Positions 4,447-20,341 of a DNA stretch of 21,750 bases are shown here, one piece after another. Origin of the DNA: a virus; IMG/VR virus record IMGVR_UViG_3300023112_000108, positions 1-21,750 of that record; one strand, 5' to 3'. Below the pieces are notes generated by a model that was not told where the DNA came from, did no database searches, and worked only from the letters and a program-made list of their open reading frames with translations. Positions within the stretch are counted from its first letter, which is position 1. Each line of letters opens with the position of its first letter. Both the position numbers and the translations under genes were made by a program.

Positions 4447-5361
4447 ATGAGCAATATACAAATAAGATTTTTCTCATCTTTAAATTCTGCGGTTCCTACT
4501 GTTCTTCTTTTAGATGAATACCCAAATGCAAAATTGGCTTATTCAATGAGAAAACTAAGAAATAGTTATGCAGGTTCTTGCATTAGAGTGAGGAGATCAA
4601 GTGATAATGCAGAGCAAGACATTGGATTTTCAAACAATGAACTTGATCAGGCAGCTTTACTTAGTTTTGTAGGTGCGAATGATGGTTTTGTAACTGTTTG
4701 GTATAACCAAAAAACAACAAGCAATAAGGCTTTCAATACAACAGCAATTTATCAACCTAGAATCGTTAGTAGTGGCGTAGTAGAAACTGTTAATGGAAAA
4801 CCTGCTATTTACTGTGGCCCAAATGCAGTATTGTATGCAGGTGATACATCCACTTTAAAATACCTACACGATGGAACTATAAGAAGTTCTACGGTTACAG
4901 TTATGCAAACCGCCTCTGTATTGTCAGGCTTGAAATTTTTGTGGTTAACAGGTACATCAGGTGGAGGTAGCATACAAGCACAAATGTATTTTTCAGGGAC
5001 ATCAATTCGTCAGCAAATAAAAAATGGACCCGGACAAATAAATAATACAGGCCCTACAAACTCCGTAAGCACGAGTTCTGATTATCTTGTTTGGCAAACT
5101 TTTGATGGGGGAAATCCAACACCATCTGAAAAGATAATAATGAGCTTAAATGGAGGTTCGGACATAGCAACAAATGCAGCTACATTTACACCAAGCACTG
5201 CGAACTCAACAATGAGCCTGCACCTGTTTAACTACCGATATCCACAAGTGGGTTACGGAACCAATGGTTATTGCCAAGAAATGATATTTTGGGAGTATGA
5301 TTATACAGGGGATAAGGCTGCTATAAGTGACAATATTAATAATTATTACGGAATTTACTAA
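4447..5361 (+). CDS. Lectin-like tail protein, arabinofuranosidase-B-like fold (copy 1)
   Basis: A protein of 304 residues. The segment at about 25-90 (YPNAKLAYSMRKL, SCIRVRRSSDN, QDIGF, NELD, LLSFVGAN, WYNQ) is a pattern I know from phage tail proteins with a concanavalin-A-like jelly-roll related to the alpha-L-arabinofuranosidase B catalytic domain. It is followed by QPRIV and NGKPAI (about 103-121), also typical. The C-terminus (about 272-304) has GYCQEMIFW and NINNYYGIY, an end strand common to such jelly rolls. The usual WYDQSG is here WYNQK. The likely role is carbohydrate binding on the host surface; enzymatic activity is not supported. The start overlaps nothing (1 nt after the previous stop), and the stop overlaps the next ATG by 1 nt. 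A diverged second copy lies at 5610-6518. Confidence 0.7.
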   Translation: MSNIQIRFFSSLNSAVPTVLLLDEYPNAKLAYSMRKLRNSYAGSCIRVRRSSDNAEQDIGFSNNELDQAALLSFVGANDGFVTVWYNQKTTSNKAFNTTAIYQPRIVSSGVVETVNGKPAIYCGPNAVLYAGDTSTLKYLHDGTIRSSTVTVMQTASVLSGLKFLWLTGTSGGGSIQAQMYFSGTSIRQQIKNGPGQINNTGPTNSVSTSSDYLVWQTFDGGNPTPSEKIIMSLNGGSDIATNAATFTPSTANSTMSLHLFNYRYPQVGYGTNGYCQEMIFWEYDYTGDKAAISDNINNYYGIY

Positions 5362-5594: not shown

Positions 5595-5609
5595 TAAATT
5601 TAATTGAAA

Positions 5610-6518
5610 ATGAGTAGAAACGCACAAATAGGATTCTTCCAATCTTTATTAAACACAGAATCTGATGTATTTCTGTTAGATGCGTATCCTAATGCAAAAG
5701 TTGCTTATTCATTAAGAAAATTATCAAGTACTTATGCAGGATCCTGTATTAGAGTTAGAAGGTCAAGCGACAATGTAGAACAGGACATTGGATTTGTAAG
5801 TAATGAATTAGATACAACTTCATTGCTTTCCTTTGTTGGCGCAAATAATGGTTACGTGACTACGTGGTACAATCAAAAAGGAACAGGTGACAATGTTAAT
5901 AGCATAATTGCAGCTACTCAGCCACAAATAGTTGATGCAGGAAGTCTTGTAACTGTAGGTGGAAAACCTGCAATATTTGCCCTAGCAACGTCTTTACTTA
6001 ATGCAGGAAACACAAGCACGTTTAAATATTTACATGATGGAACTATAAAAAGTTCAAATGTAGCTGTAATCAAAACAAGTACCAATATATCACCATTAAG
6101 ATTCTTTTGGCTGACAGGGACCTCAGGTGCAACTAGCGTAGAAGCAAGTACTTATTTTTATGGTGCGGAGATAATTCAACGAACAAGGAATGGGACTGTT
6201 TTTATTCGAAATGATGACACAAATAGTGCATCAAAACACCAATCTATATTCCAAATTTATGATGTAGGTAATCCTACTCCTTCGGATAAACTAATTACAT
6301 ACATAAATGATGGTTCAGCAATAGCTACAAATACTTCAGCGTTTACCCCAAATACAGGGAACTCAACATATCCATTATTGTTGTTTAATTATCCTAACTA
6401 TTGGTCTAGTTACGGGCTTCATGGCTATTGTCAAGAATTGATATTTTGGGATGATGATTATTCTGCTGACAAAGCTGCAATTAATAGTAATATAAACAAC
6501 TATTATAGTATTTATTAA
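5610..6518 (+). CDS. Lectin-like tail protein, arabinofuranosidase-B-like fold (copy 2)
   Basis: I choose ATG 5610 over the in-frame TTG at 5604 because it gives MSRNAQIGFFQSLL, which lines up with MSNIQIRFFSSLN of copy 1; the product is 302 residues. It repeats the same landmarks: YPNAKVAYSLRKL, SCIRVRRSSDN, DIGF, NELD, LLSFVGANNG, WYNQKG, QPQIV, GGKPAI, KYLHDGTI, FFWLTGTSG, GNPTPSDK and the ending GYCQELIFW...NINNYYSIY. The first 90 and last 35 residues are clearly most alike between copies, while the middle is more diverged. This fits a conserved jelly-roll core with a varying binding face. The likely role is host-surface glycan recognition in the tail. Confidence 0.7.
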   Translation: MSRNAQIGFFQSLLNTESDVFLLDAYPNAKVAYSLRKLSSTYAGSCIRVRRSSDNVEQDIGFVSNELDTTSLLSFVGANNGYVTTWYNQKGTGDNVNSIIAATQPQIVDAGSLVTVGGKPAIFALATSLLNAGNTSTFKYLHDGTIKSSNVAVIKTSTNISPLRFFWLTGTSGATSVEASTYFYGAEIIQRTRNGTVFIRNDDTNSASKHQSIFQIYDVGNPTPSDKLITYINDGSAIATNTSAFTPNTGNSTYPLLLFNYPNYWSSYGLHGYCQELIFWDDDYSADKAAINSNINNYYSIY

Positions 6519-6910: not shown

Positions 6911-6955
6911 GAAGACCCGCTAGAACGGTAACTAGCAGGTGTTGGTTCTTCTTAC
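6907..6955 (+). ncRNA. Two-tier RNA stem containing a stop codon
   Basis: GTAAGAAG (6907-6914) pairs perfectly with CTTCTTAC (6948-6955), continues with ACC (6915-6917) against GGT (6944-6946) past a single bulged T, and encloses GCTAG (6919-6923) paired with CTAGC (6932-6936) around an AACGGTAA loop. The TAA stop of the preceding gene (6908-6910) is within the first strand. The following terminator at 6968-6994 is separate, so this element probably remains on the 3' end of the message. It could protect the end or bind a protein. No known RNA family is recognised. Confidence 0.5.
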
Positions 6956-6967
6956 AGCCATGAAGAT

Positions 6968-6994
6968 GCATGATGAATCATGCCCGTTTTTTTT
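6968..6994 (+). terminator. Intrinsic terminator of the rightward arm
   Basis: GCATGAT (6968-6974) and ATCATGC (6977-6983) form a perfect inverted repeat with GA between them, followed by CCG and eight T residues (6987-6994). It lies 58 nt after the last rightward stop codon and before the convergent leftward genes, where a terminator is expected. Confidence 0.8.
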
Positions 6995-7029
6995 ATCAAT
7001 AAACAGGAAAATAGTTTCTCTCTAGTTTT

Positions 7030-7058
7030 AAGTGGATTAAGATCTTAGTTTTCCACTT
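7030..7058. repeat. Inverted repeat with palindromic core in the convergence zone
   Basis: AAGTGGA (7030-7036) pairs with TCCACTT (7052-7058), enclosing the palindrome TAAGATCTTA (7038-7047). On the plus strand the repeat is followed by TTTTC, so it could be a backup terminator. On the minus strand it lies about 70 nt past the stop of the DUF932 gene. It may alternatively be a protein-binding site. Confidence 0.4.
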
Positions 7059-7074
7059 TTCTTTGAGAAAAATA

Positions 7075-7121
7075 TAATACTACCTATTGATAGTATTAGT
7101 AGTAATATGCTACTAATAGGT
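7075..7121 (-). terminator. Competing hairpins after the leftward arm, possible terminator
   Basis: Two foldings compete. TAATACTA (7075-7082) pairs perfectly with TAGTATTA (7091-7098). Alternatively ACCTA (7082-7086) with TAGGT (7117-7121) encloses TTAGTAG (7096-7102) with CTACTAA (7110-7116). The element ends 8 nt past the stop codon of the leftward DUF932 gene. Read leftward it is followed by TATATTTTTC, a weak T-run. It is probably the leftward terminator, although AT-rich and not strong. Confidence 0.45.
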
Positions 7122-7129
7122 TCCATTAA

Positions 7130-8206: not shown

Positions 8207-8258
8207 AATAAACTTTTAAAGTGTAAATATATATAATTATTGTTTAATTTTCAAGTTT

Positions 8259-8354
8259 TTACATGTGAGTTAACCATATTACCGAAGAAATAATCAGTAA
8301 TACAATTAATATTCTTACACATTTAAAAACTATACTGTTTTCATCGTATTTCAT
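8259..8354 (-). CDS. 31-residue single-span membrane peptide
   Basis: ATG at 8354 lies 4 nt after the stop of the MazG-like gene, and the frame runs to TAA at 8259-8261. It encodes MKYDENSIVFKCVRILIVLL followed by IISSVIWLTHM. A polar, mixed-charge N-terminus leads into a span of about 16 hydrophobic residues (VRILIVLLIISSVIWL). Operon-like spacing and a clean membrane segment support a real small gene. The small size leaves room for chance. Possible roles such as a lysis regulator, exclusion or membrane anchor are guesses. Confidence 0.45.
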   Translation of the reverse strand: MKYDENSIVFKCVRILIVLLIISSVIWLTHM

Positions 8355-8358
8355 ATGA

Positions 8359-10660: not shown

Positions 10661-10675
10661 ATTACTTGTAATTAA

Positions 10676-10734
10676 AAAAGGCGGCTTCTTTACAGATGCT
10701 TTTGCACATCAGTGAGTAAAGTTAACCGCCTTTT
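10676..10734 (-). terminator. Two-tier hairpin with T-run ahead of DNA polymerase
   Basis: AAAAGGCGG (10676-10684) pairs with CCGCCTTTT (10726-10734); inside, CTTTAC (10688-10693) pairs with GTAAAG (10716-10721), and inside that GATG (10695-10698) with CATC (10707-10710). Read leftward the outer stem is followed by six T residues, the hallmark of an intrinsic terminator for the preceding gene. The large structured interior is unusual for a plain terminator, and the polymerase start codon is only 15 nt away. Confidence 0.7.
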
Positions 10735-10755
10735 AATGTTTGTGTTAGTTATTCC

Positions 10756-11169
10756 CTACGTTGTAGGTAATATTAAATTTGATTGTTTTATGTTATTTGG
10801 ATCTTCTTCCAAAAGAGTTTTCCAATCAAACGTGTCACTATTTATAGCAAATAGATTTATAAAGTTTTCAATTTCTTCTTTTTCAGTAATATAAAATTCT
10901 GAAAAAGTGTCAACCGCAACTCTTTGTTCTTTAACCGTTTTTCCGGTTTCTTTATTTGGTACTTTAAGTCTTACAGGTTGACCGTTACTGTCTAACCTTG
11001 AAACCATATGAAATGATTCTTTTTTAATATTAGTTATAACCGCAAGAATACCACTTGTAGGATCAAACATAGATTCTACATAAGGGCAATCTTTTGTAAC
11101 AGGTACTAAACTAAAAGACTTTACGTTTCTAAATGCTGATGTGCATAACATCATATTTTTTCCAATCAT
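10756..11169 (-). CDS. Phage protein of unknown function
   Basis: A protein of 137 residues from ATG 11169. It appears soluble and beta-rich in the first half (SFSLVPVTKDCPYVESMFDPTSGILAVITNIKKESFHMV), then a charged segment with GQPVRLKVPNKETGKTVKEQR, and a helical C-terminal part with EKEEIENFINLFA and DTFDWKTLLEE. No motif is recognised. It is the last gene of the ligase block and is followed by the strong hairpin at 10676-10734, so it may be a replication accessory. That rests on position only. Confidence 0.65.
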   Translation of the reverse strand: MIGKNMMLCTSAFRNVKSFSLVPVTKDCPYVESMFDPTSGILAVITNIKKESFHMVSRLDSNGQPVRLKVPNKETGKTVKEQRVAVDTFSEFYITEKEEIENFINLFAINSDTFDWKTLLEEDPNNIKQSNLILPTT

Positions 11170-11193
11170 ATGTTAAATATATTGAATTATATT

Positions 11194-11739
11194 TTATTGT
11201 AACAAATCGTCAGGAATTTTTTCTTTTAATGTTTCTTTATTTAAATCTGGCACACTACATATTTCATAAACTTCTTCAATTGTTGTTATGTTTACTCCTA
11301 ATTCATTTGCATATAATTTATGATACTCATCAGGCTTTAAAAAACTTTTTATATATTCAGATATCTGACCAACATTACCGAAATAATCTATGATCTTATT
11401 TTTTGTTTCTTGTGAAAATTTAGAGTATTTACCCGCACAAAACATATTATAATCATACTCATATTCAGATAAGTCAAATATGCAACCATGTCTTGTAGCG
11501 TTTATTATAAAGCTTTTATAATAAAGTTTATTTTTCTTTAATATTTTATCTTCAAACAATTTAAATTTTAAATGTCTCGGACAACTATAGATAATTATAA
11601 ATTTATAATCATCTGTGGTAAATAAACCATCCCATGAAATATAAGCCTCTAAAGGAACATAAGATTCATTTTTTTTAATATCTAATAGAGGATACAGAAA
11701 CACTTTGCTTTTTTGAAAATATTCTGTATAAGTATTCAT
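11194..11739 (-). CDS. Phage protein of unknown function
   Basis: A protein of 181 residues starting 3 nt after the nuclease gene. The N-terminal YTEYFQKSKVFLYPLLDIKK and the YISWDGLFTTDDYKFIIIYSC region remind me of uncharacterised proteins in Bacteroidota phages, but I cannot name a domain. It is rich in Tyr, Phe and Lys, with alternating beta and helical segments and no membrane span. The C-terminus is helical and acidic (TTIEEVYEICSVPDLNKETL). Co-transcribed with ligase and nuclease, so a role in DNA metabolism is possible but unproven. Confidence 0.65.
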   Translation of the reverse strand: MNTYTEYFQKSKVFLYPLLDIKKNESYVPLEAYISWDGLFTTDDYKFIIIYSCPRHLKFKLFEDKILKKNKLYYKSFIINATRHGCIFDLSEYEYDYNMFCAGKYSKFSQETKNKIIDYFGNVGQISEYIKSFLKPDEYHKLYANELGVNITTIEEVYEICSVPDLNKETLKEKIPDDLLQ

Positions 11740-11742
11740 TTA

Positions 11743-12732
11743 TTATAATAAAGGTTTATTGACTAAAAAATTATAGGGCAATTTATAATTTCGTTCTAAA
11801 TAATGGTAATTAGCCATTTCTAGAGTTTGTTTTAATTTTATACCCCAATCTGACATTGTAGCATCGGATACATCAAAAACATATACCTGATCATATTTGT
11901 CAATAACAACAAATTTAAACAAAAAATCATATTCATTTAAAATGAATTCATCAACACTGCTCATAACTAGCTTTAAATAGATTGCGGCTTGCATCCAGTA
12001 GTTATAGTATTCAACTGTTTCATCAAATTCTGATATGGTTTTAGATGTGGTTTTTAAGTCACATATAATAACTTGTTTATTTTCATCATCTATTTTGTAA
12101 TAATCAATAAAACCATGCAAACCAAAAGGTTTATCATTAAGGTTGCATTGTATGTATTTTTCAGAGAATGATTTTGTTGAAGCAAGCTCAAAGTCATTTT
12201 TAGATTCATTTTTAAATAAAAATTCTACTTCTTTGTTGCTTTTTAATATCTCAACTGAACTGTTACATCTTTCAAAAGTTTCTTGATTTATTACATCTAT
12301 AATTGGATTACTTAAAAACTTCCAATATGGTTTGTGATCTTCTATTCTAATTTTTGCAATTCTAGCTTCATCAGCTTTCAAAGATTGATAAAGGTTCATA
12401 TGCTTTAAAGAATCTAATATAATAAAATCTTCAACTTGATCAAGATCAGAGGCATCAGTATAAAGCATCATGTCTTTCATCACCCGCCTTACATTATCAC
12501 TGGGACTTTTACCAGGAACAACATTAAACTTTTCTTCAAGTTTGTCCGGTTCAAATAAAAGACAATGTACAAGTTTACCTTCAATCAGGTGTTTGTCTGT
12601 TCTAACTTCTCTGTCTAACAATATATAGTCCTTATAAAATAAGGATGGTGAAAATAATAATTTGTTTAGAGATGAATAACTAAAATTAAATTCTTTAGCA
12701 TAAAACACCTCTTCTTTATATTTATCTGTCAT
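11743..12732 (-). CDS. PD-(D/E)XK superfamily exonuclease (RecB/Cas4/RecE-like)
   Basis: A protein of 329 residues. The nuclease core is visible as G-K-L-V-H (52-56), the lone acid in HGFIDYY (Asp210), the D-x-K signature in IICDLKTTS (Asp225, Lys227) and a downstream YWMQAAIYLKL with the Q-x-x-x-Y pattern (Gln248, Tyr252). This arrangement is typical of RecB, Cas4 and RecE-type exonucleases that resect DNA ends. With the Sak4-like ATPase, the ssDNA-binding candidate and the resolvase, it completes a phage recombination set. The ATG overlaps the ligase stop by 4 nt, indicating coupling. I see no Cys cluster for an iron-sulfur centre as in Cas4. Confidence 0.85.
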   Translation of the reverse strand: MTDKYKEEVFYAKEFNFSYSSLNKLLFSPSLFYKDYILLDREVRTDKHLIEGKLVHCLLFEPDKLEEKFNVVPGKSPSDNVRRVMKDMMLYTDASDLDQVEDFIILDSLKHMNLYQSLKADEARIAKIRIEDHKPYWKFLSNPIIDVINQETFERCNSSVEILKSNKEVEFLFKNESKNDFELASTKSFSEKYIQCNLNDKPFGLHGFIDYYKIDDENKQVIICDLKTTSKTISEFDETVEYYNYWMQAAIYLKLVMSSVDEFILNEYDFLFKFVVIDKYDQVYVFDVSDATMSDWGIKLKQTLEMANYHYLERNYKLPYNFLVNKPLL

Positions 12733-13838
12733 TTATCTAATCTAAATCCAACACATACAGGAAATCTTGGTAATCCGTCATCGGTATATTCAAAGAATCT
12801 TATTTCAGCTTTTTTGCCAATATACATTTCTTTGTTTTTAAGAATATCTTCTCTATCAGCTTGAGAAAACTTCATCCCGCAACCAAATGTAATAGTGCTA
12901 AGATGTTTACCACCGTTGGTGCTAAGCTCTGCACAATGCACAACACCTTGCTTAGGATTCTTATCCGAAGGAACTATGTCAACAACCTTATAAGTCATGT
13001 CAATAAAATCTTTATACTTCAGCAATGAAGAAGATCTTTTGTTTACTTCATAACCTTTATCAGAATGTCTTATAATAGCACCTTCATATCCAAGATTAAC
13101 ATAGTTATTATGCCAATCTTTAATAAACTCAGAACTCTTTATTTTAGATGTACTAATCAATCTGCAATGATCATATACATGCCTTTTAAGTATCTGACTA
13201 AGGTTTTCTAATCTATCTGTATAAGATGAATTAGTATCTACTATGTCATAGATTATAAATCTCACTGTTATACTTTCAGTTCTTTTCTTTTTGATAAGCT
13301 TCATATTCTCTTGAAAAGTTTTTCCATGAGCATATAATTCTCCGTCAAGAATGTAACTTTTATCATCTGTGATTTTATTTAGATCGGATGCTATATGATC
13401 CATAGTTATTATCTCTTTTCCTTTTCTGGATAATAATTGGACTTTTCCTTTAGAAACAAATGCAAGACATCGCATCCCATCTAATTTAGGTTGTATATGA
13501 ACTTCTCCTTCACTCCAATTTATTGATTTATCTGCGTAGGGTTTTGCAAGCATAGGTAGAATCACTTCTGAATTTTTTGCTTCATCAACTGTTTCAAAAT
13601 AACCTGTAGTCATTTTAGTTTCAATTTTTGATTTAGCTTCTAATACAGCCTGTTGTTCAGGCGTTGTTTCATTAGATTTACCAATATTTTTTCCTTCACA
13701 AGTGTGAATATGACTAACCATATTTTCACTACCGTGTACTCCAGAATTTTGAACTACATCAGAGCCTTTAGTATAAACGTGTAATACACGTACTTTTCCT
13801 TTACTATCTTTTTTATAAATTTTTTTTGAATACATCAT
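12729..13838 (-). CDS. ATP-dependent DNA ligase with N-terminal extension
   Basis: A protein of 369 residues. The nucleotidyltransferase motifs are clear: motif I QPKLDGMR with the adenylated lysine at about 118, motif III YILDGELY (162-169), IIIa FIIYDIV (194-200), IV YEGAIIR (251-257) and V LLKYKDF (272-278), followed by an OB-fold region (about 280-369). The first ~90 residues (with HTCEGKNIGKSNETTPEQQA near 45-64) form an extra domain resembling the WGR-like N-termini of some phage ligases. The enzyme seals nicks using ATP, for example between Okazaki fragments. It leads the middle gene block; a two-tier hairpin (13853-13908) ends 15 nt before its start. Two Met codons in tandem leave the exact start ambiguous by one residue. 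Confidence 0.93.
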   Translation of the reverse strand: MMYSKKIYKKDSKGKVRVLHVYTKGSDVVQNSGVHGSENMVSHIHTCEGKNIGKSNETTPEQQAVLEAKSKIETKMTTGYFETVDEAKNSEVILPMLAKPYADKSINWSEGEVHIQPKLDGMRCLAFVSKGKVQLLSRKGKEIITMDHIASDLNKITDDKSYILDGELYAHGKTFQENMKLIKKKRTESITVRFIIYDIVDTNSSYTDRLENLSQILKRHVYDHCRLISTSKIKSSEFIKDWHNNYVNLGYEGAIIRHSDKGYEVNKRSSSLLKYKDFIDMTYKVVDIVPSDKNPKQGVVHCAELSTNGGKHLSTITFGCGMKFSQADREDILKNKEMYIGKKAEIRFFEYTDDGLPRFPVCVGFRLDK

Positions 13839-13852
13839 ATATTTTTATTAAA

Positions 13853-13908
13853 GGGGTATGGATGTGCACATTTCTGTACACATCCAAAAATCAATTATGG
13901 CATACCCC
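13853..13908 (-). promoter_or_regulatory. Two-tier hairpin in the leader of DNA ligase
   Basis: GGGGTATG (13853-13860) pairs with CATACCCC (13901-13908), enclosing GATGTG (13861-13866) with CACATC (13879-13884), whose loop can add ACA/TGT pairs. It begins 2 nt after the upstream stop and its foot lies 15 nt before the ligase start. Read leftward only three T residues follow before AATAAAAA, so termination is likely weak; processing or translational control is as plausible. Confidence 0.6.
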
Positions 13909-13910
13909 AG

Positions 13911-15092
13911 TTAATATGGTAGATATTGAATTTCTAAATCATCCTTTTTTATTTTCTCTATAACATGTGCTTTAAGTTTTACATCTTTTAGGCTAATATC
14001 AAATAAGTTATGGTTTTGTCCAAAATTATGTTCTAAAACAGTTTCAAACATATGTTCACATATAGTTTTTACAGAAAACTCTGTTAATGAATCACTATTC
14101 ATAAGCTCCTTAATAAGTCTGCTATGAGCACCAGAATTTCCACGTTGGAAATAAAGCTCATATGCTTTAAAAGCATTTCTCATGGCTTTCACATTAATAT
14201 GATTCCAATTAGAGGCATATCTTAATTTCTCATGATTAAATGCATATACTAGACCTACTACATCTTTAGATTTTTCATAATTACAATTAGCCATTATTTG
14301 TACAGCCATATCTATATCTTGTCGGTCATGACTATTTATCATTGTTTTTATAGACTCATAATCTGATGATTTTAAAACAGCTAAAGATTCAGATGCGATA
14401 TCAATTAATGTAGAATCAAGAACATGCTTTTCTGTATCTAAAGTTGACGCATCATAGTTGTTCTTTGCTATATGAAACCATTGTTTATTTTTAGAAGGAA
14501 AAAGATTTTCCCACACATCTCTATATATTTTTATGCTTACACCATTTGTTACTTGTACATTAGGACGATACCAAGTAAAATTAAGATTTAAATAAACTGA
14601 TCTATCATCTAATGTAATATCCGGATTTTCAATACAAAACTCCGAAATCTTAAGATTAAGAGCTTCTAAAAAAAATTTGTTTTCTGCAGATGTCGTTTCT
14701 ATACGCTTATCTATGATTTCAATATTTTTTTTTAGTTGAGACATTGAGGTTTTTCTATACAGTTTAGTCGTACACATATGACGCATCATATCTGAACTTA
14801 TAATGTGATAATCTGCATTTTTTTTATCTCTTGTAACTTTTAAATTGCAAGAATTTTTTAGCAAATCTACTTTATCTCTTGGCAGCTTTATTTTAGAATA
14901 TCTATAAATGCTTTTATTCTTTAAATCTGCTTTATTTATTTTATTTTTTAAACTATAATCTTTTGCTTCAAACCCCAAATATTGTTTTTCAATTTTAAAT
15001 TCAAATTTAAAATCTGAAGATTGTAACGCATAATTAATATTATTAACTGGCGTATTTTCTTTAAAACTTATTTTTATTATTTCTTTGAACAT
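13911..15092 (-). CDS. Unknown phage protein, related to its upstream neighbour
   Basis: A protein of 393 residues whose start overlaps the end of the upstream gene by 16 nt. No named domain is recognised. Two segments resemble the neighbour encoded at 15077-16150: N-L-K-V-T...K-N-A-D-Y-H-I-I (83-98) and MINSHDRQDIDMA (251-263) followed by NYEKS; a HVLDSTL segment (223-229) also matches. The second segment also resembles residues 17-50 of the 18558-18917 product. Composition is soluble, Lys-rich and mixed alpha/beta. It belongs to the operon of the MoxR-like ATPase and VWA protein, so it may be a partner or substrate adaptor of that pair, which is inference. Confidence 0.65.
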   Translation of the reverse strand: MFKEIIKISFKENTPVNNINYALQSSDFKFEFKIEKQYLGFEAKDYSLKNKINKADLKNKSIYRYSKIKLPRDKVDLLKNSCNLKVTRDKKNADYHIISSDMMRHMCTTKLYRKTSMSQLKKNIEIIDKRIETTSAENKFFLEALNLKISEFCIENPDITLDDRSVYLNLNFTWYRPNVQVTNGVSIKIYRDVWENLFPSKNKQWFHIAKNNYDASTLDTEKHVLDSTLIDIASESLAVLKSSDYESIKTMINSHDRQDIDMAVQIMANCNYEKSKDVVGLVYAFNHEKLRYASNWNHINVKAMRNAFKAYELYFQRGNSGAHSRLIKELMNSDSLTEFSVKTICEHMFETVLEHNFGQNHNLFDISLKDVKLKAHVIEKIKKDDLEIQYLPY

Positions 15093-16150
15093 GTTTTATA
15101 TTTTTCGTATTCTGGTTTAACTTTAACTTTAAAAACATAAAGATTTCTATTTGATATATCTATTTCCGTTCTTGCTTTTTTTTCTAAATAACAAAAACTC
15201 TCAGAACATAATTTTTCTTTCTCATGAAGATGTAAAATCATGTCTTCAGGAGTATAGTATTTCACCTCATCGTAATTAATACAGTTTAGCCAAAATTTAA
15301 AATCTTTGTTTACATCTAACCTATAGAAACTGTCACGAATTTCTTTTGCTAATTCCCATATTAAATGAGGATTTTTATTATAGTCAATGGTTGGTATAAT
15401 AGTAGACAAAACCAGCAAATCTGATCTGTCTTCTGAATTCAGCCACCCGGTTATCTCTTCACTTAATTTACTATCTAAAATTAATTTGTGATTTCCAGAT
15501 AATATAAAATCCTCAGCATTTATTATTTCTATATTAGGATCTGTTTCTATTAAATAAGCAATATTTAATGCCATCCCTGTTATTATGTATTCTGTCATAC
15601 ACATTTCAACAGTTGTATCTATACTTGTTGGTCTATATGAATATAAATTACATAATTTATCAGTTATGTCACTTTCGCAGAGGACGTTAAATGGATAAGC
15701 ATCTATAAAAGGAACAACTCCTGAAGTACTTTCTACAACATCATAATTCCATAATTCAAATAAAAAACTTGTTGCTTTTATTTTTTCTCCACTTTTATAT
15801 ACCCTGCGAGGACTTTCATCTCCAATAAATAAATCAGCTATCTTATAATTACTTGTAATTTTTATATTGTTATCTGCGGCAACAGCTTTAATTCTTTCTG
15901 TAGATGCGCTGCATCCCGGAATAATAAAAGCTTTTTTATGCCCTTTTGGAGTTTTCACTCTTTTTTTATATTCATCATCGTGTAAGCAATGCTCAACTCT
16001 TTCAAACTTATCCTCAATTTGAGTCATTATTACTTTATGTATCTCTAGACTAGTCGGTGAAGATATGAACCCAATTACGGGTTCATCCTCCAACGAAAAG
16101 TGTTCAAGAGCATCTTGATTAAACTCTTGAAAAATTGATTTATTACTCAT
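15077..16150 (-). CDS. Unknown phage protein with N-K-T...AD motif
   Basis: A protein of 357 residues whose ATG shares one base with the stop of the AAA+ ATPase gene. Residues 74-110 read AFIIPGCSASTERIKAVAAD then NNIKITSNYKIADLFIGDE, a beta-alpha-beta-like unit ending in A-D followed by a hydrophobic strand, loosely reminiscent of a BRCT-type half domain. At 222-244 it has LILDSKL and GWLNSEDRSDLL followed by DYNKN, again like the protein encoded downstream. No catalytic motif is seen. The one-base overlap with the ATPase suggests a stoichiometric partner. The BRCT comparison is only an impression. Confidence 0.65.
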   Translation of the reverse strand: MSNKSIFQEFNQDALEHFSLEDEPVIGFISSPTSLEIHKVIMTQIEDKFERVEHCLHDDEYKKRVKTPKGHKKAFIIPGCSASTERIKAVAADNNIKITSNYKIADLFIGDESPRRVYKSGEKIKATSFLFELWNYDVVESTSGVVPFIDAYPFNVLCESDITDKLCNLYSYRPTSIDTTVEMCMTEYIITGMALNIAYLIETDPNIEIINAEDFILSGNHKLILDSKLSEEITGWLNSEDRSDLLVLSTIIPTIDYNKNPHLIWELAKEIRDSFYRLDVNKDFKFWLNCINYDEVKYYTPEDMILHLHEKEKLCSESFCYLEKKARTEIDISNRNLYVFKVKVKPEYEKYKTCSKK

Positions 16151-17409
16151 TATTTTACGGTCATTTTAATTATTTCAGGTTTCATCATTAATTTGCTAAA
16201 TTTTTGTTTGTTTCCATTATAAATGGTTCTAACAATCAAATACTTAAGATCATTAGTAAAATACTCGCCTGTACAAAGAGTTTCTAATCTATCCGTAATC
16301 TTTGCACTAATTGTATTTTTTAAAGAGTAGACAACAGCAAAGTTTGCAAGTCTAGTTGCAAGGATTGATGCAATGTCTGCACGATAATTATCATCTTTAC
16401 CAATACAACTGTTTAATTCACCAAGAATATGTTGTTCATTTTCATGAGTTAATAAGTCTTTTGGTGTAACTAGTTTATCCAACTTGTTGTTAATAAAAAT
16501 GGTAAACATAGATGCAAACTCTTCTCCAACAGAACCTTCGCCAATCATTTGAACCATAGGCAAAGACTTATCAAAATTTTCAAATGAACTAATTGCATTA
16601 AAAAATGTAGTAATAGATCTTGCATTTGTTTCTTGAGTTATTAGCTCAGGATGTAAAAGCAAAAAGTTAATACATCTAGTATCAATACTTGCTTCTTCTG
16701 CCCACTTAGCCCATACATCAATGTCAAATTTTAGATTAGCCGTAACATATCTTGTTTTTTGTGCAGAATCTACAGAATTAACCATATAGTCACCATTATC
16801 AGGATTTGCTGTTAAAATAATATGCCAATTTTTAGGCAATTTCCATGAAATATACTCCTGTCTATCAATGAGCTCCATTACTGCTTGAATAAATCTAACA
16901 TCAGCACGGTTCCAGTCATCAAGCAGTAGAATGCCTCCTTCTTTTTTGTCTGCAATCCATTCAGGAGCACAATAAGACATTCTGTTTTTACCTGTAACTT
17001 TCCAGCCTTGTTTTAAAAAGTCTTGAACAGCTAGTTCATCAACCCATTGACCAATTTTTTTCTTAACGGGCGTTTTTGCAATCTGTTCTTTTTGTGTAGC
17101 AGTATAATTTAGATTATCTAATCCTGAATGTAGTGGATTCATAATCTTCTCCTTATACATTTGAAATTGTCTTACTGGAAAACCTACAAGATCTCCCAAT
17201 TCCTCAATTTGCGCTAAGTTTAATTTTACAAATGCAAGGTTGTTTTCTTTTGCCAACTCAACTATAGTGGATGTTTTACCAATCCCTGATTCACCTACAA
17301 CCTCTACAGATACAGAATTTTTTTCATTCTCCTGTAAGAAGTTGTTATTTTTAATTATATGGTTTACAAAACCTTTTAATTCGTCGATGTTTAAATCTAC
17401 TTGTGCCAT
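16150..17409 (-). CDS. MoxR/CobS-like AAA+ ATPase
   Basis: A protein of 419 residues. Walker A is GESGIGKT (39-46), Walker B is GILLLDDWNRAD (159-170) and sensor 1 is ILTANPDNGD (198-207); Arg220 in QKTRYV and Arg264 in NARSITTF are candidates for arginine finger and sensor 2. The DDWNRAD form and the long insert between Walker A and B fit the MoxR/CobS branch, which typically works as a ring ATPase together with a VWA-domain protein. The VWA gene lies directly upstream in the same operon (13-nt gap). CobS-like ATPases occur in many phages with no settled role; remodelling of a protein complex is the usual proposal. Confidence 0.88.
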   Translation of the reverse strand: MAQVDLNIDELKGFVNHIIKNNNFLQENEKNSVSVEVVGESGIGKTSTIVELAKENNLAFVKLNLAQIEELGDLVGFPVRQFQMYKEKIMNPLHSGLDNLNYTATQKEQIAKTPVKKKIGQWVDELAVQDFLKQGWKVTGKNRMSYCAPEWIADKKEGGILLLDDWNRADVRFIQAVMELIDRQEYISWKLPKNWHIILTANPDNGDYMVNSVDSAQKTRYVTANLKFDIDVWAKWAEEASIDTRCINFLLLHPELITQETNARSITTFFNAISSFENFDKSLPMVQMIGEGSVGEEFASMFTIFINNKLDKLVTPKDLLTHENEQHILGELNSCIGKDDNYRADIASILATRLANFAVVYSLKNTISAKITDRLETLCTGEYFTNDLKYLIVRTIYNGNKQKFSKLMMKPEIIKMTVK

Positions 17410-17422
17410 AATTGTTTTAATT

Positions 17423-18571
17423 TTAATTTAATTGAATTTTTTGTCCAGGTAAAGCTTCATTTACAGAACATATAGAGCTATGAACCCATAATGCATTTTT
17501 TGGACAGTTATGTGGAATACCAGCTTCTCCATCTGTAAAATATATAAGGGCTGTATACTTGCCAAATTGATTATAATGATCTATAACGGGTTGAAATATT
17601 GTTCCACCTCTACCATGTATTTCCCAATCTTCTTTAGGATTAAAATCCTTAATTGAGTTTATTTCGGTATCACATTGAACAATTGTAATTTTATGTCCAG
17701 TTTTATGCATGTGAGTCAATTCACTAAAAAATTCTTTAAGTTCATTTTTACTTACAGATCCTGATGTATCTACACCAACGCATATATGATTTTTAAATTT
17801 AATTTTAAGTCCGGGATTCTCAGAATACCTTTTGTTATATTTTCTTCTGAGCTTCTTTGTAAAAACAATAGAAGAGTTTCCAACAAATCTTCTTAGATAT
17901 CCTTTCCAATCAAATTTGGCAGGTTCAACATGTTTTAATCTTTCAATAAGATCTGCAAGTTCACCAGGTATATTTCCGCATGTTTTTTCTACATGTTCAG
18001 CAACATCTTTTATTTGGTGTTCTATTTGTTTTTTAATTAATTTTTGATCTGTCTCAGCAATATCTTCAAATTCATCCCATGTTCCATGCATATCATCACC
18101 CACTTCATCTAACATGGAATTTAAATTTGGACATGTTCTATTTTCATGCTCTTCTTGCAATTTTTTATAATACCAGTCTGTACCCATTTTGGCAGGCAGA
18201 TGTATTTCGGGGAAACTTTCCATTGTTATTCCGCCTTCTGGTAAATAATCTGGATCAATATATTGGTTGATTTCAAGATCTGCAGCTATGTTAAATAGTT
18301 TTTTATCTGCATATCCAGTTCTAGATAGCATATGACCAAAAGATATATGGAGTATTTCATGTTTTAATAATCCTATTTTATGTTTATCTGAAAGATTACT
18401 AAAAAACTCAGAGTTAATGTATAATTGTACATTCATTCCGTTTTTAGATACACCAGCAGTTTGCACATGATCCCCATAAATTTTATTCATACTAATTAGA
18501 AAGAGACCATAAAAAGGCTCTTTAAATATTAGACTTTTTGAAGTTTTGGAGACTAAATCAGCTATTTTCAT
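17423..18571 (-). CDS. VWA-domain protein with metallopeptidase-like N-terminus (DUF2201/CobT-like)
   Basis: I choose ATG 18571 (382 residues) over a TTG at 18607, which would deepen the overlap with the upstream gene. The N-terminal half contains LKHEILHISFGH with a zinc HExxH motif (71-75) and NIAADLEIN (94-102), whose Asp98 could be the third ligand. The C-terminal half is a von Willebrand factor A domain with intact MIDAS residues: DTSGS (268-272), GGT (322-324) and FTDGE (345-349). The linker (about 140-215) is helical and acidic. This architecture matches the DUF2201/VWA-like family that partners MoxR-type ATPases. Either the peptidase site is active, or it is a structural relic; the sequence keeps all the ligands. 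Confidence 0.85.
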   Translation of the reverse strand: MKIADLVSKTSKSLIFKEPFYGLFLISMNKIYGDHVQTAGVSKNGMNVQLYINSEFFSNLSDKHKIGLLKHEILHISFGHMLSRTGYADKKLFNIAADLEINQYIDPDYLPEGGITMESFPEIHLPAKMGTDWYYKKLQEEHENRTCPNLNSMLDEVGDDMHGTWDEFEDIAETDQKLIKKQIEHQIKDVAEHVEKTCGNIPGELADLIERLKHVEPAKFDWKGYLRRFVGNSSIVFTKKLRRKYNKRYSENPGLKIKFKNHICVGVDTSGSVSKNELKEFFSELTHMHKTGHKITIVQCDTEINSIKDFNPKEDWEIHGRGGTIFQPVIDHYNQFGKYTALIYFTDGEAGIPHNCPKNALWVHSSICSVNEALPGQKIQLN

Positions 18572-18917
18572 ATTTATAATTTTTTTTTGTAAACTCAAAT
18601 AATTCAAACATATCTTGTTGAATATTTATTTCTTTTTTTATTGTTTCTAATAAACAGTCTTTACACCATTCTATAACAAAGTTGGGATGATGATCTTTCA
18701 GTATACTACTAAACTTACCATGCTCTATTATTAACAAAAAAATCCCTCTGTTATAGGGATTTAAATTTTTATAAAGTAATTTCAAATGAATGACCTTTGT
18801 ATTTGCATTATTTAATATTGATATAGCTAAATTTGTGTCATCTTTATTTGCTGATGAAATCATATTCAATATGTTTTTAAAGCTATCTATATCAATTTCT
18901 ATTTTTTCATATTCCAA
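18558..18917 (-). CDS. Small unknown protein sharing a motif with operon neighbours
   Basis: A protein of 119 residues. The start is a TTG at 18917, overlapping the resolvase gene by 19 nt; the ATG at 18908-18910 is in another frame and the first in-frame Met comes 18 residues later, so the true start is uncertain. It overlaps the VWA gene start by 14 nt. Residues 17-50 (NMISSANKDDTNLAISIL then NNANTKV) resemble a segment of the proteins at 13911-15092 and 15077-16150. The rest is helical and aromatic-rich, with HHPNFVIEWCKDCLLETI. Probably an accessory of the AAA+/VWA operon; function unknown. Confidence 0.55.
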   Translation of the reverse strand: MEYEKIEIDIDSFKNILNMISSANKDDTNLAISILNNANTKVIHLKLLYKNLNPYNRGIFLLIIEHGKFSSILKDHHPNFVIEWCKDCLLETIKKEINIQQDMFELFEFTKKNYKYENS

Positions 18918-19291
18918 TCTTTATTTATTTCTATTATTACTCCTGGTGATTCTTTGTCATATTTATATTCTTTAAAAACCGGTATTATAAAGGTCATATT
19001 ATCATCTTCAATCCATCCGTGTTTAACCATATCATCTTGCACTGTTTGTGCAGGATTGATATAATCAAATTTATGCCGCGTGCCTCTAATGAAAGTAAAT
19101 GAAATCATAACAGGTAGATTATGCTTTGTCAATTCTTTTTTAAATTCATCAGCATATTTCTCATAATAGGCGTTTGTATCTTTCCTATAGTTCATAACAG
19201 TTTTGCTTGCTATAAAATATTTTCCTGTCCACCTTCTTCCATTTTTACTTGATGGAACATTCCCAGGTATAAACCATTTTTTATTTTCCAT
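18899..19291 (-). CDS. RusA-like Holliday junction resolvase
   Basis: A protein of 130 residues, the usual size for RusA-type enzymes. The N-terminus has FIPGNVPSSKNGRRW with the S-K-N segment typical of the family, and the acidic core appears as FDYINPAQTVQDD (Asp76, Asp86, Asp87) followed by GWIEDDN (Asp96, Asp97), equivalent to the D-x-D-N...K...D...DD arrangement of RusA. The family Lys is replaced by Gln here. The enzyme would cut four-way junctions formed during recombination or replication so that DNA can be packaged. Its start overlaps the primase stop by 11 nt. Confidence 0.72.
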   Translation of the reverse strand: MENKKWFIPGNVPSSKNGRRWTGKYFIASKTVMNYRKDTNAYYEKYADEFKKELTKHNLPVMISFTFIRGTRHKFDYINPAQTVQDDMVKHGWIEDDNMTFIIPVFKEYKYDKESPGVIIEINKDWNMKK

Positions 19292-20249
19292 GAATTGCTT
19301 TTTTAAGTAAGGGCTTTAATTGTTGATGAACTTTTTCAAATCCATAATCTCTAACTGAATCAGATAAATCCTTACTCATATCTAAATATATTCCATTTAT
19401 ATTATAGACGCATTTATATTTAGTTATAGCATTTTTGCCAGCTTTGTCATTGTCAAATAACGTTATTATTTTTTTATACTTATTCTTTAGGTTTTCAATA
19501 ACATATGGCTTTATCAATGTATTCTCACTATTGGGCGCTACAACTTCAATATTGTATCCAAACCCGGATAAACACATAGCATCTTTTAATGAAGAACATA
19601 TAACCAAATATGGTTGGTCATATTTCAATTGATCTAAGCCTTGCATTCTACTAAATATATTAAAGAATCTTCTGCCTTTTTTAGAAAAGGGTTGATATAC
19701 TTTATATAGGCTGTTTTGAGTATCACAAAAACCATATACACGGCTATCTCGAATTTTAATTTGACTAAGCTGATCATCTTCTTTTATAAGTGTATAATAA
19801 TCTATTGCTTTTACATTGAATTTTTTTAAAATAGTTGTACCTATTCTAAATTGTAACCAGTAATTAGCATCATCTTTATTCCAAGGTCTTTCTTTGTAAA
19901 AATCTAGCTTCCATTTAGCTTCAACTTTTAAGTTGACTTTTGCAGATGGATTTTCGTTATAATCTTTTATAATTTTTTCTACAGCTACCGGATAGTTTAC
20001 ATTAAATAAATATTGAACTAAATTTATTTTATTGCCCCCTTTTCCAGAAGAAAAATCTTTAAACATATACACTTGTTTTATTCTATCTACATAAATGCAC
20101 ATACTAGGATCAGTATCTTCATTATTCCATATAGATTTTATCTTTATATCCTGCCCTGTTAATACTTGATTTAAATCCAAATAATATTGAAACACCCAAT
20201 AGCTGGGTATATCTGTTATTTGGATTGCTAAATTTTTGGTGTTAATCAT
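19281..20249 (-). CDS. DnaG-type primase with TOPRIM domain
   Basis: A protein of 322 residues. The N-terminal half has DPSMCIYVD (47-55) and MFKDFSSGKGGN (62-73), the core of a CHC2-like domain but without zinc-binding Cys/His. The C-terminal half is a TOPRIM fold: PYLVICSSLKDAM (213-225), VVAPNSE and ITLFDNDKAG (262-271, with Asp266 and Asp268). The position where TOPRIM proteins usually have the catalytic Glu of E-G-x-x-D reads S-S-L-K-D, so that Glu is absent; the DxD motif is intact. No helicase domain is fused. It likely lays RNA primers for the family B polymerase. It leads the first block, 12 nt after a hairpin with a T-run (20262-20298). Confidence 0.82.
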   Translation of the reverse strand: MINTKNLAIQITDIPSYWVFQYYLDLNQVLTGQDIKIKSIWNNEDTDPSMCIYVDRIKQVYMFKDFSSGKGGNKINLVQYLFNVNYPVAVEKIIKDYNENPSAKVNLKVEAKWKLDFYKERPWNKDDANYWLQFRIGTTILKKFNVKAIDYYTLIKEDDQLSQIKIRDSRVYGFCDTQNSLYKVYQPFSKKGRRFFNIFSRMQGLDQLKYDQPYLVICSSLKDAMCLSGFGYNIEVVAPNSENTLIKPYVIENLKNKYKKIITLFDNDKAGKNAITKYKCVYNINGIYLDMSKDLSDSVRDYGFEKVHQQLKPLLKKAIHGK

Positions 20250-20261
20250 TGTTTTAAAAAA

Positions 20262-20298
20262 AATAGAGGGGGACTAACTATGCAATCCCCCCGCTATT
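20262..20298 (-). terminator. Intrinsic-terminator-like hairpin ahead of primase
   Basis: AATAG (20262-20266) and GGGGGA (20268-20273) pair with TCCCCC (20286-20291) and CTATT (20294-20298). Read leftward, the hairpin runs into eight T residues and then AAAACAATG, placing the foot 12 nt before the primase ATG. This is the best terminator-like structure of the leftward arm, yet it leaves almost no room for a promoter before primase. Confidence 0.75.
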
Positions 20299-20303
20299 CT
20301 CTG

Positions 20304-20341
20304 TTTAACCTAAAAAACCTGTGTTAGCAGGAAGAGTTAAA
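20304..20341 (-). other. Upstream hairpin including the stop codon of the ssDNA-binding gene
   Basis: TTTAAC (20304-20309) pairs with GTTAAA (20336-20341), enclosing CCTG (20318-20321) with CAGG (20328-20331). Read leftward the stop codon (20339-20337) is in the first strand and the inner stem is followed by six T residues. It sits 5 nt from the terminator-like hairpin at 20262-20298, so the two form a tandem structured 3' end. Confidence 0.4.

Follow-up and report, generated by a model that had tools for sequence, protein, structure and literature searches.

A terminator-like hairpin in the replication operon of a marine crAss-related phage as a putative antisense RNA against the major capsid gene start

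Hairpins in the gaps before polymerase, ligase and primase

Are the hairpins that stand just before the genes of DNA polymerase (PolB), ligase and primase parts of one system, or are they separate elements that happen to share a position? The question is raised by the window, an IMG/VR virus fragment of 21,750 nt, whose leftward arm is encoded on the minus strand in the order Sak4, g20337, primase, RusA, g18558, DUF2201 protein (g17423), MoxR-like AAA ATPase (g16150), g15077, g13911, ligase, exonuclease, g11194, g10756, PolB, g8359 and DUF932. The gaps concerned, all read on the minus strand, measure 95 nt before PolB (10661-10755), 72 nt before ligase (13839-13910) and 87 nt before primase (20250-20336). 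It was originally predicted that no other gap exceeds about 60 nt, which holds if a 31-aa ORF (8259-8354) is counted as a gene, the remaining leftward gaps being then at most 52 nt. Without this ORF, a fourth gap of 152 nt appears (8207-8358), and its inspection revealed no hairpin comparable to the other three.

The hairpins themselves stand out clearly from shuffled controls, with folding energies of -23.9 kcal/mol against -12.0 for the PolB gap (z -4.5), -26.9 against -12.6 for the ligase gap (z -4.7) and -27.1 against -17.0 for the primase gap (z -3.1); for each of the three, at most 1 in 200 shuffles folded equally well. Their feet were found about 15 nt (PolB), 14-15 nt (ligase) and 11-12 nt (primase) from the start codon, in agreement with the predicted 15, 15 and 12 nt, and the predicted runs of six and eight T are present at the PolB (T6) and primase (T8) hairpins, the ligase-gap element ending in TTTAAT only. 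A specific link to polymerase, ligase and primase was not borne out, since hairpins of relatives stay with the upstream gene and short spacing is common. Terminators in the tandem gaps of relatives commonly lie 10-30 nt before the next start, so the distance is a habit of compact genomes. The three gap hairpins are non-random, but each is of a different kind, and in no case is there a tie to the gene that follows.

The PolB-gap hairpin (10677-10733, minus strand) has three tiers followed by T6 and is T-flanked on the other strand as well. Among 80 PolB relatives fetched and reduced to 52 non-redundant loci, the region 5' of PolB falls into two classes, with either a hairpin of G+C stem and T-run or a different gene abutting PolB without a hairpin. 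When PolB comes next after g10756, the hairpin follows g10756 in 24/26 loci; when another gene intervenes, it still follows g10756 in 23/26 loci and stands directly before PolB in none of the 26. Pairing at the same place in front of PolB, expected of homologues under the original prediction, is therefore missing wherever another gene has come to precede PolB. Because the hairpin tracks g10756 (10756-11169) whatever gene comes next, this comparison identifies it as the probable intrinsic terminator of g10756 and not as a PolB leader. In ten relatives (L005, L029, L031, L042, L055, L063, L069, L075, L077 and L079), a GGC[TA]NTAA-like stretch (TTTTTTTGGCTMTAA) is conserved after the terminator T-run, 5' of PolB, and may serve either as a promoter or to pair alternatively with the 5' arm AGCC.

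The primase gap holds, on the minus strand, a hairpin with T8 (20261-20299) and a small CCTG/CAGG hairpin with T6 (20318-20331), the latter read from sequence and fold. T-run hairpins of unrelated sequence occupy the same place in relatives, and the hairpin with T8 looks like a terminator of the unit before it. Both the PolB and the primase hairpins appear to combine a G+C-rich stem, a T-run and a position at the end of a transcription unit, as intrinsic terminators do. An interior too structured for a simple terminator, predicted for all three, was recognized in the ligase-gap element; the other two are terminator-like. Five relatives carry in the primase gap a separate conserved pseudoknotted RNA of ~80 nt that is absent from the window (L082:3631-3712; L084:5893-5972; L085, about 5893-5972; L212, on the minus strand before primase; L410, about 19610-19693). 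It consists of a GATG/CATC outer stem, a covarying P3 with the conserved loop TGGCNCAGGACTCATC, a pseudoknot AGTCCT/AGGACT and a conserved TACTATTT, with 100% of cells paired and double changes in 5 pairs. This second RNA has no match in Rfam at the gathering score; in the single genome searched, no gene start was antisense to it, and it serves as a negative control for what follows.

A conserved RNA element after g13911

The ligase-gap hairpin is of a different kind. Fold and covariance alignment define a two-tier RNA element (13853-13908, minus strand) with an outer stem P1 (13902-13908 with 13853-13859), a one-sided 5' bulge (13886-13901) and an inner stem P2 (13876-13885 with 13860-13869) closed by a loop (13870-13875). 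Within the bulge lies a conserved unpaired seed, GCCATAATTGAT (13890-13901), which recurs just behind the stop codon of g13911 in many relatives with entirely different stems; about 20 relatives have the whole arrangement of P1, bulge and P2, likewise following this gene. A covariance search from a two-sequence seed gathered 17 members, and in their alignment, which is model-fitted to the structure, 98.2% of cells are paired compared with 74% in shuffles, 13/15 pairs have changes on both sides, and the covariation score is 0.605 compared with 0.206. Pairing falls to 37-65% when the structure is slid. The bulge is nearly invariant while the stems vary freely, and G.U pairs occur within the stems, which points to RNA and not DNA. 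In single-sequence folds, the unpairedness of the seed ranges from 0.38 to 0.98 and is only 0.4-0.6 in some members. Altogether, the alignment indicates a structured RNA, conserved among relatives, in the ligase gap.

This RNA belongs to the 3' end of g13911 (13911-15092, minus strand), which encodes 393 aa with the C-terminus LPY. The element directly follows the g13911 stop in all members examined, and the gene after it changes: the ATP-dependent DNA ligase (12729-13838, minus strand) is next only in the window and in L007 among the loci examined, other genes lying there in most relatives, either an exonuclease or another gene. As the gene after the element varies, the element is not a ligase leader. 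With the PolB hairpin assigned to the preceding gene and the ligase-gap element kept without a ligase downstream, the proposal of a single system gating core replication enzymes does not hold. A pattern search for relatives of the ligase returned none. The 3' T-run amounts to T5-T7 in some members and is weak or absent in several, so that the element need not have a defined 3' end. No family in Rfam, searched at gathering and permissive thresholds with the window and its relatives, matches the element, and no enrichment of the Bacteroidota-type promoter TAnnTTTG was seen upstream of it. When viral contigs were scanned for a 14-nt version of the seed, about 110 matches were obtained outside the group, as expected by chance and without stems.

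Several other readings of the element were considered and set aside. Ribozymes, riboswitches and known leaders gave no match. A leader peptide reading TTG-ATT-GTT through the hairpin has an open frame in most members, but L033 lacks the TTG and no product is conserved. With the start of the gene immediately downstream, the bulge could pair only in part in L003, L006 and L010, and elsewhere not at all.

Two features of the neighbourhood may be added. Many g13911 relatives end in DDLPF or YLPF, so that g13911 and many of its homologues carry an SSB-like tail (DDLPF, YLPF, LPY), yet no SSB domain was found. In relatives, the boundaries after g13911 and after g10756 look, by eye only, like cargo sites, where ligase, a cysteine-rich protein (MDKEYICSICGK), small ORFs and other ORFs are swapped just 3' of both hairpins.

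Predicted pairing of the bulge with the capsid and ATPase starts

What, then, could the near-invariant bulge pair with? Besides the element, a scan for GCCATAATTGATTGTTAT picked out a gene start, in antisense orientation, in related 117-kb phages. In whole-record scans of 16 relatives, the exact 12-mer occurs at the hairpin and in few other places, the reversed control pattern giving 0-1 matches per genome and strand. The other exact match, wherever a genome has both the element and the gene, is the start AUCAAUU-AUG-GC of one 540-550-aa protein (MATPVLNNGIFLRDT...). This protein is the major capsid protein, the capsid of relatives matching Pfam Crass_capsid (PF23898, E 2.2e-29) and the PHROG major head protein (5.8e-30). 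The seed is the exact antisense of its start, AUCAAUUAUGGC, and covers nucleotides -7 to +5 of the gene with a bulge of 12 nt, up to about 16 nt. The capsid gene lies outside the window, and pairing in the window's own genome is inferred from relatives; the search for capsid homologues rests on query residues 1-40, and each start was read in the sequence. A Crass-type capsid in relatives places the phage near Crassvirales; cultured capsid relatives are distant, namely Leptolyngbya phage Lbo-JY46 (28%) and Cellulophaga phages phi4:1 and phi17:2 (26%).

Complementarity at the capsid start extends over 10-17 contiguous pairs, and the seed-capsid duplexes reach -14 to -25 kcal/mol, shuffled-seed means being -3 to -4.5. 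Ranked against the other gene starts in three near-complete genomes, 122-140 starts in total per genome, the capsid start comes first or shares first place (-18.5, -20.8 and -17.1 kcal/mol); the ties in G018 are with the ATPase start and with a gene (39911-42139) about 7 kb after the capsid start. Both complementarity to an initiation region beyond chance and a seed held single-stranded in a defined structure, here by the covarying stems round the bulge, are features of base-pairing regulatory RNAs. A second predicted target is the start region of the MoxR-like AAA ATPase, AACAATTATGGC (17405-17416, minus strand; gene 16150-17409), which forms 10 contiguous pairs with the seed. Complementarity at this start averages 10.6/12 in element-bearing loci (n=5), compared with 7.5/12 elsewhere (n=43). 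One relative without the element, L449 (CAKZOX010000136.1), whose ATPase start reads AAGTATGGC, lies inside a MAG named Campylobacteraceae; the host assignment is uncertain because of binning.

The capsid start is complementary at 12/12 positions, as AUCAAUUAUGGC, in all 13 genomes that have both element and capsid gene on one record (G002, G004-G011, G018, G032, G038 and G054), and in 2/17 genomes where the locus is present but the element is not (L052 and L079), a difference with a Fisher p of 1.8e-6 when kinship is ignored. On the PolB tree, the element switches between presence and absence about three times, and a kinship-aware pairwise test yields 2 usable pairs, nearly always concordant, a number that cannot reach significance. 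L017, L034 and L048 are nested among element-bearing relatives, have no element, and show degraded capsid complementarity. In L079, which has no element at the usual place, another terminator-like hairpin (GGGGTGT/ACACCCC, L079:10050-10110) carries GTCATAATTGAT and might be a relocated seed, a weak lead.

Changes in the bulge are informative as well. The hairpin after g13911 in G054 has new stems and the bulge GCTATGATTGGT, whose three differences each pair with AUCAAUUAUGGC as G.U; pairing kept by wobble favours RNA pairing over a shared DNA operator. L027 has the bulge GCCATAGTAT and, on the same contig, an ATPase start ACTATGGC in place of the ATTATGGC of others. A capsid start ATACTATGGC was found on a separate contig (L373) of the same metagenome, the nearest neighbour of which in 4-mer make-up is the L027 contig, so that this link is made by shared metagenome and similar 4-mers rather than by a single contig. 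The L027 bulge reaches -15.0 on its presumed own capsid compared with -11.1 on the common capsid start, and -13.4 on its own ATPase start compared with -11.1 on the common one. The common bulge reaches -15.1 on the L373 capsid with 8 contiguous pairs only, which means that energies alone do not separate that swap. In G032 and G038, the antisense is partial, with no more than 10-12 pairs, and the seed of L033 pairs with the common capsid start at only 9 positions. Taken over few independent events, bulge changes tend to preserve target pairing and include compensatory ones. If seed and start co-evolve, an L033-type capsid start would be expected to be GTTAATTATGGC-like, and an L027-type start to be ATACTATGGC.

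Proposed function, rival readings and related systems

Comparison of the genomes shows covarying stems, a near-invariant seed, start-codon complementarity and concordant variation; function and the direction of pairing we infer. The reading we favour, with a probability of roughly 0.65, is that the ligase-gap hairpin is an operon-embedded antisense RNA of a marine crAss-related phage that would pair in trans across the capsid start codon and block ribosomes. Transcription of the replication operon would yield the element, released by termination where the T-run is good or by processing, or contained in a longer mRNA. The bulge would pair over about -10 to +5 of the capsid mRNA and prevent initiation, a mode of action that fits phages whose start regions are A-rich and without Shine-Dalgarno sites. 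Capsid synthesis would be held back while the replication genes are transcribed and would rise as early mRNA falls, and pairing at the start of the MoxR-like ATPase, a gene of the same operon, would provide feedback. The wider proposal, to which we give slightly better than even odds, is that RNA sets the timing of capsid production in marine crAss-related phages: within the replication operon, at one of its internal boundaries, a terminator-like hairpin would carry an exposed antisense seed that co-evolves with the start codons of major capsid and MoxR ATPase, coupling replication-gene transcription to delayed structural translation.

It might be asked whether all three hairpins are merely intrinsic terminators or protectors of mRNA 3' ends. 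T6 and T8 at the PolB and primase hairpins, both tied to the upstream gene, and the T5-T7 ending of some ligase-gap members speak for this. We consider it improbable as a full account, as termination has no need of an invariant 12-nt bulge in stems that vary, several ligase-gap members lack the T-run, and nothing in this reading explains why one gene start should match in antisense. Somewhat less improbable, although still unlikely, is that the pairing works in reverse, so that rising capsid mRNA binds the element within the early mRNA of the operon and causes shut-off, RNase III-like cutting or read-through of early transcription. Complementarity is symmetric, the element sits inside the operon ahead of varying genes, and capsid mRNA should be abundant late; but the capsid start is conserved with the element and drifts without it, its exact start-codon cover suits blocked initiation, and a second start, that of the ATPase, pairs with the same seed.

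Two further readings appear very improbable. A protein binding double-stranded DNA could read the same 12-bp word at both sites as a shared operator, antisense then being a matter of orientation only; an identical double-stranded word is indeed present at both sites in most genomes, and L027/L373 differ jointly from the rest. The DNA words of G054 differ at three positions with RNA pairing kept by G.U, and the word is the unpaired bulge of covarying RNA stems, antisense to start codons, which is hard to reconcile with an operator. We give just as little weight to a cis-acting leader that binds a protein or ligand (riboswitch-like, or serving autoregulation by the g13911 product) and controls the next gene. 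Such a leader might well have a conserved bulge between variable stems and lie 15-50 nt ahead of a start codon, as the element does, but the downstream gene varies (ligase, small ORFs, exonuclease), no Rfam family fits, and complementarity to the capsid start with compensatory changes would go unexplained.

An antisense RNA against the capsid start would join several from other phages. P22 sar and P1/P7 c4 are phage antisense RNAs. Others include lambda OOP, lambda aQ and BTP1 STnc6030, the last directed against the tailspike (PMC12197685). The element is like them in being a phage-encoded RNA predicted to pair with phage mRNA, several of them near the translation start. In OOP, aQ and STnc6030, the antisense complementarity to the target is long, whereas the element would reach a distant target through 10-17 nt of a bulge. 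A review of phage-derived sRNAs from 2025 (PMC12197685) does not use the word capsid in its main text. The closest proven parallel, by analogy, is CisR of Vibrio cholerae, a proven Hfq-dependent sRNA derived from a host 3'UTR that represses the CTXphi major coat gene cep (PMC13250501). In both cases a 3'UTR segment pairs, or is predicted to pair, with its own operon as well as with a phage major coat gene at the ribosome-binding site, but CisR is host-encoded and Hfq-dependent, while the element is phage-encoded between phage replication genes and has its seed in a one-sided bulge between two stems. With the intrinsic terminators of its own phage group, the element shares a place after a stop codon, a G-rich 5' arm, a C/T-rich 3' arm and sometimes a T-run; it alone among them shows a conserved 12-nt bulge and a two-tier form. 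Scaffold, place and predicted target are what is new compared with known phage base-pairing regulatory RNAs.

crAss-related phages are abundant and mostly uncultured, and the translational separation of replication from virion assembly has been little studied. A phage RNA that is aimed at the start of the phage's own major capsid gene, and whose seed co-varies with that target, would be a concrete and testable mechanism. The element would also offer a natural seed-and-scaffold design, and P1-GCCATAATTGAT-P2 could be used as a marker for such regulation in metagenomes. Terminator-like hairpins in phage gaps are worth checking for antisense seeds.

Elsewhere in the window, the convergent junction of the two arms (6911-7129) has hairpins on both strands, as expected of a bidirectional termination zone. 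Two 304-aa genes (4447-5361 and 5604-6518) each have a weak arabinofuranosidase-like match at about residues 33-103; the pair possibly represents a duplicated virion protein, the second (5604-6518) matching a virion structural PHROG.
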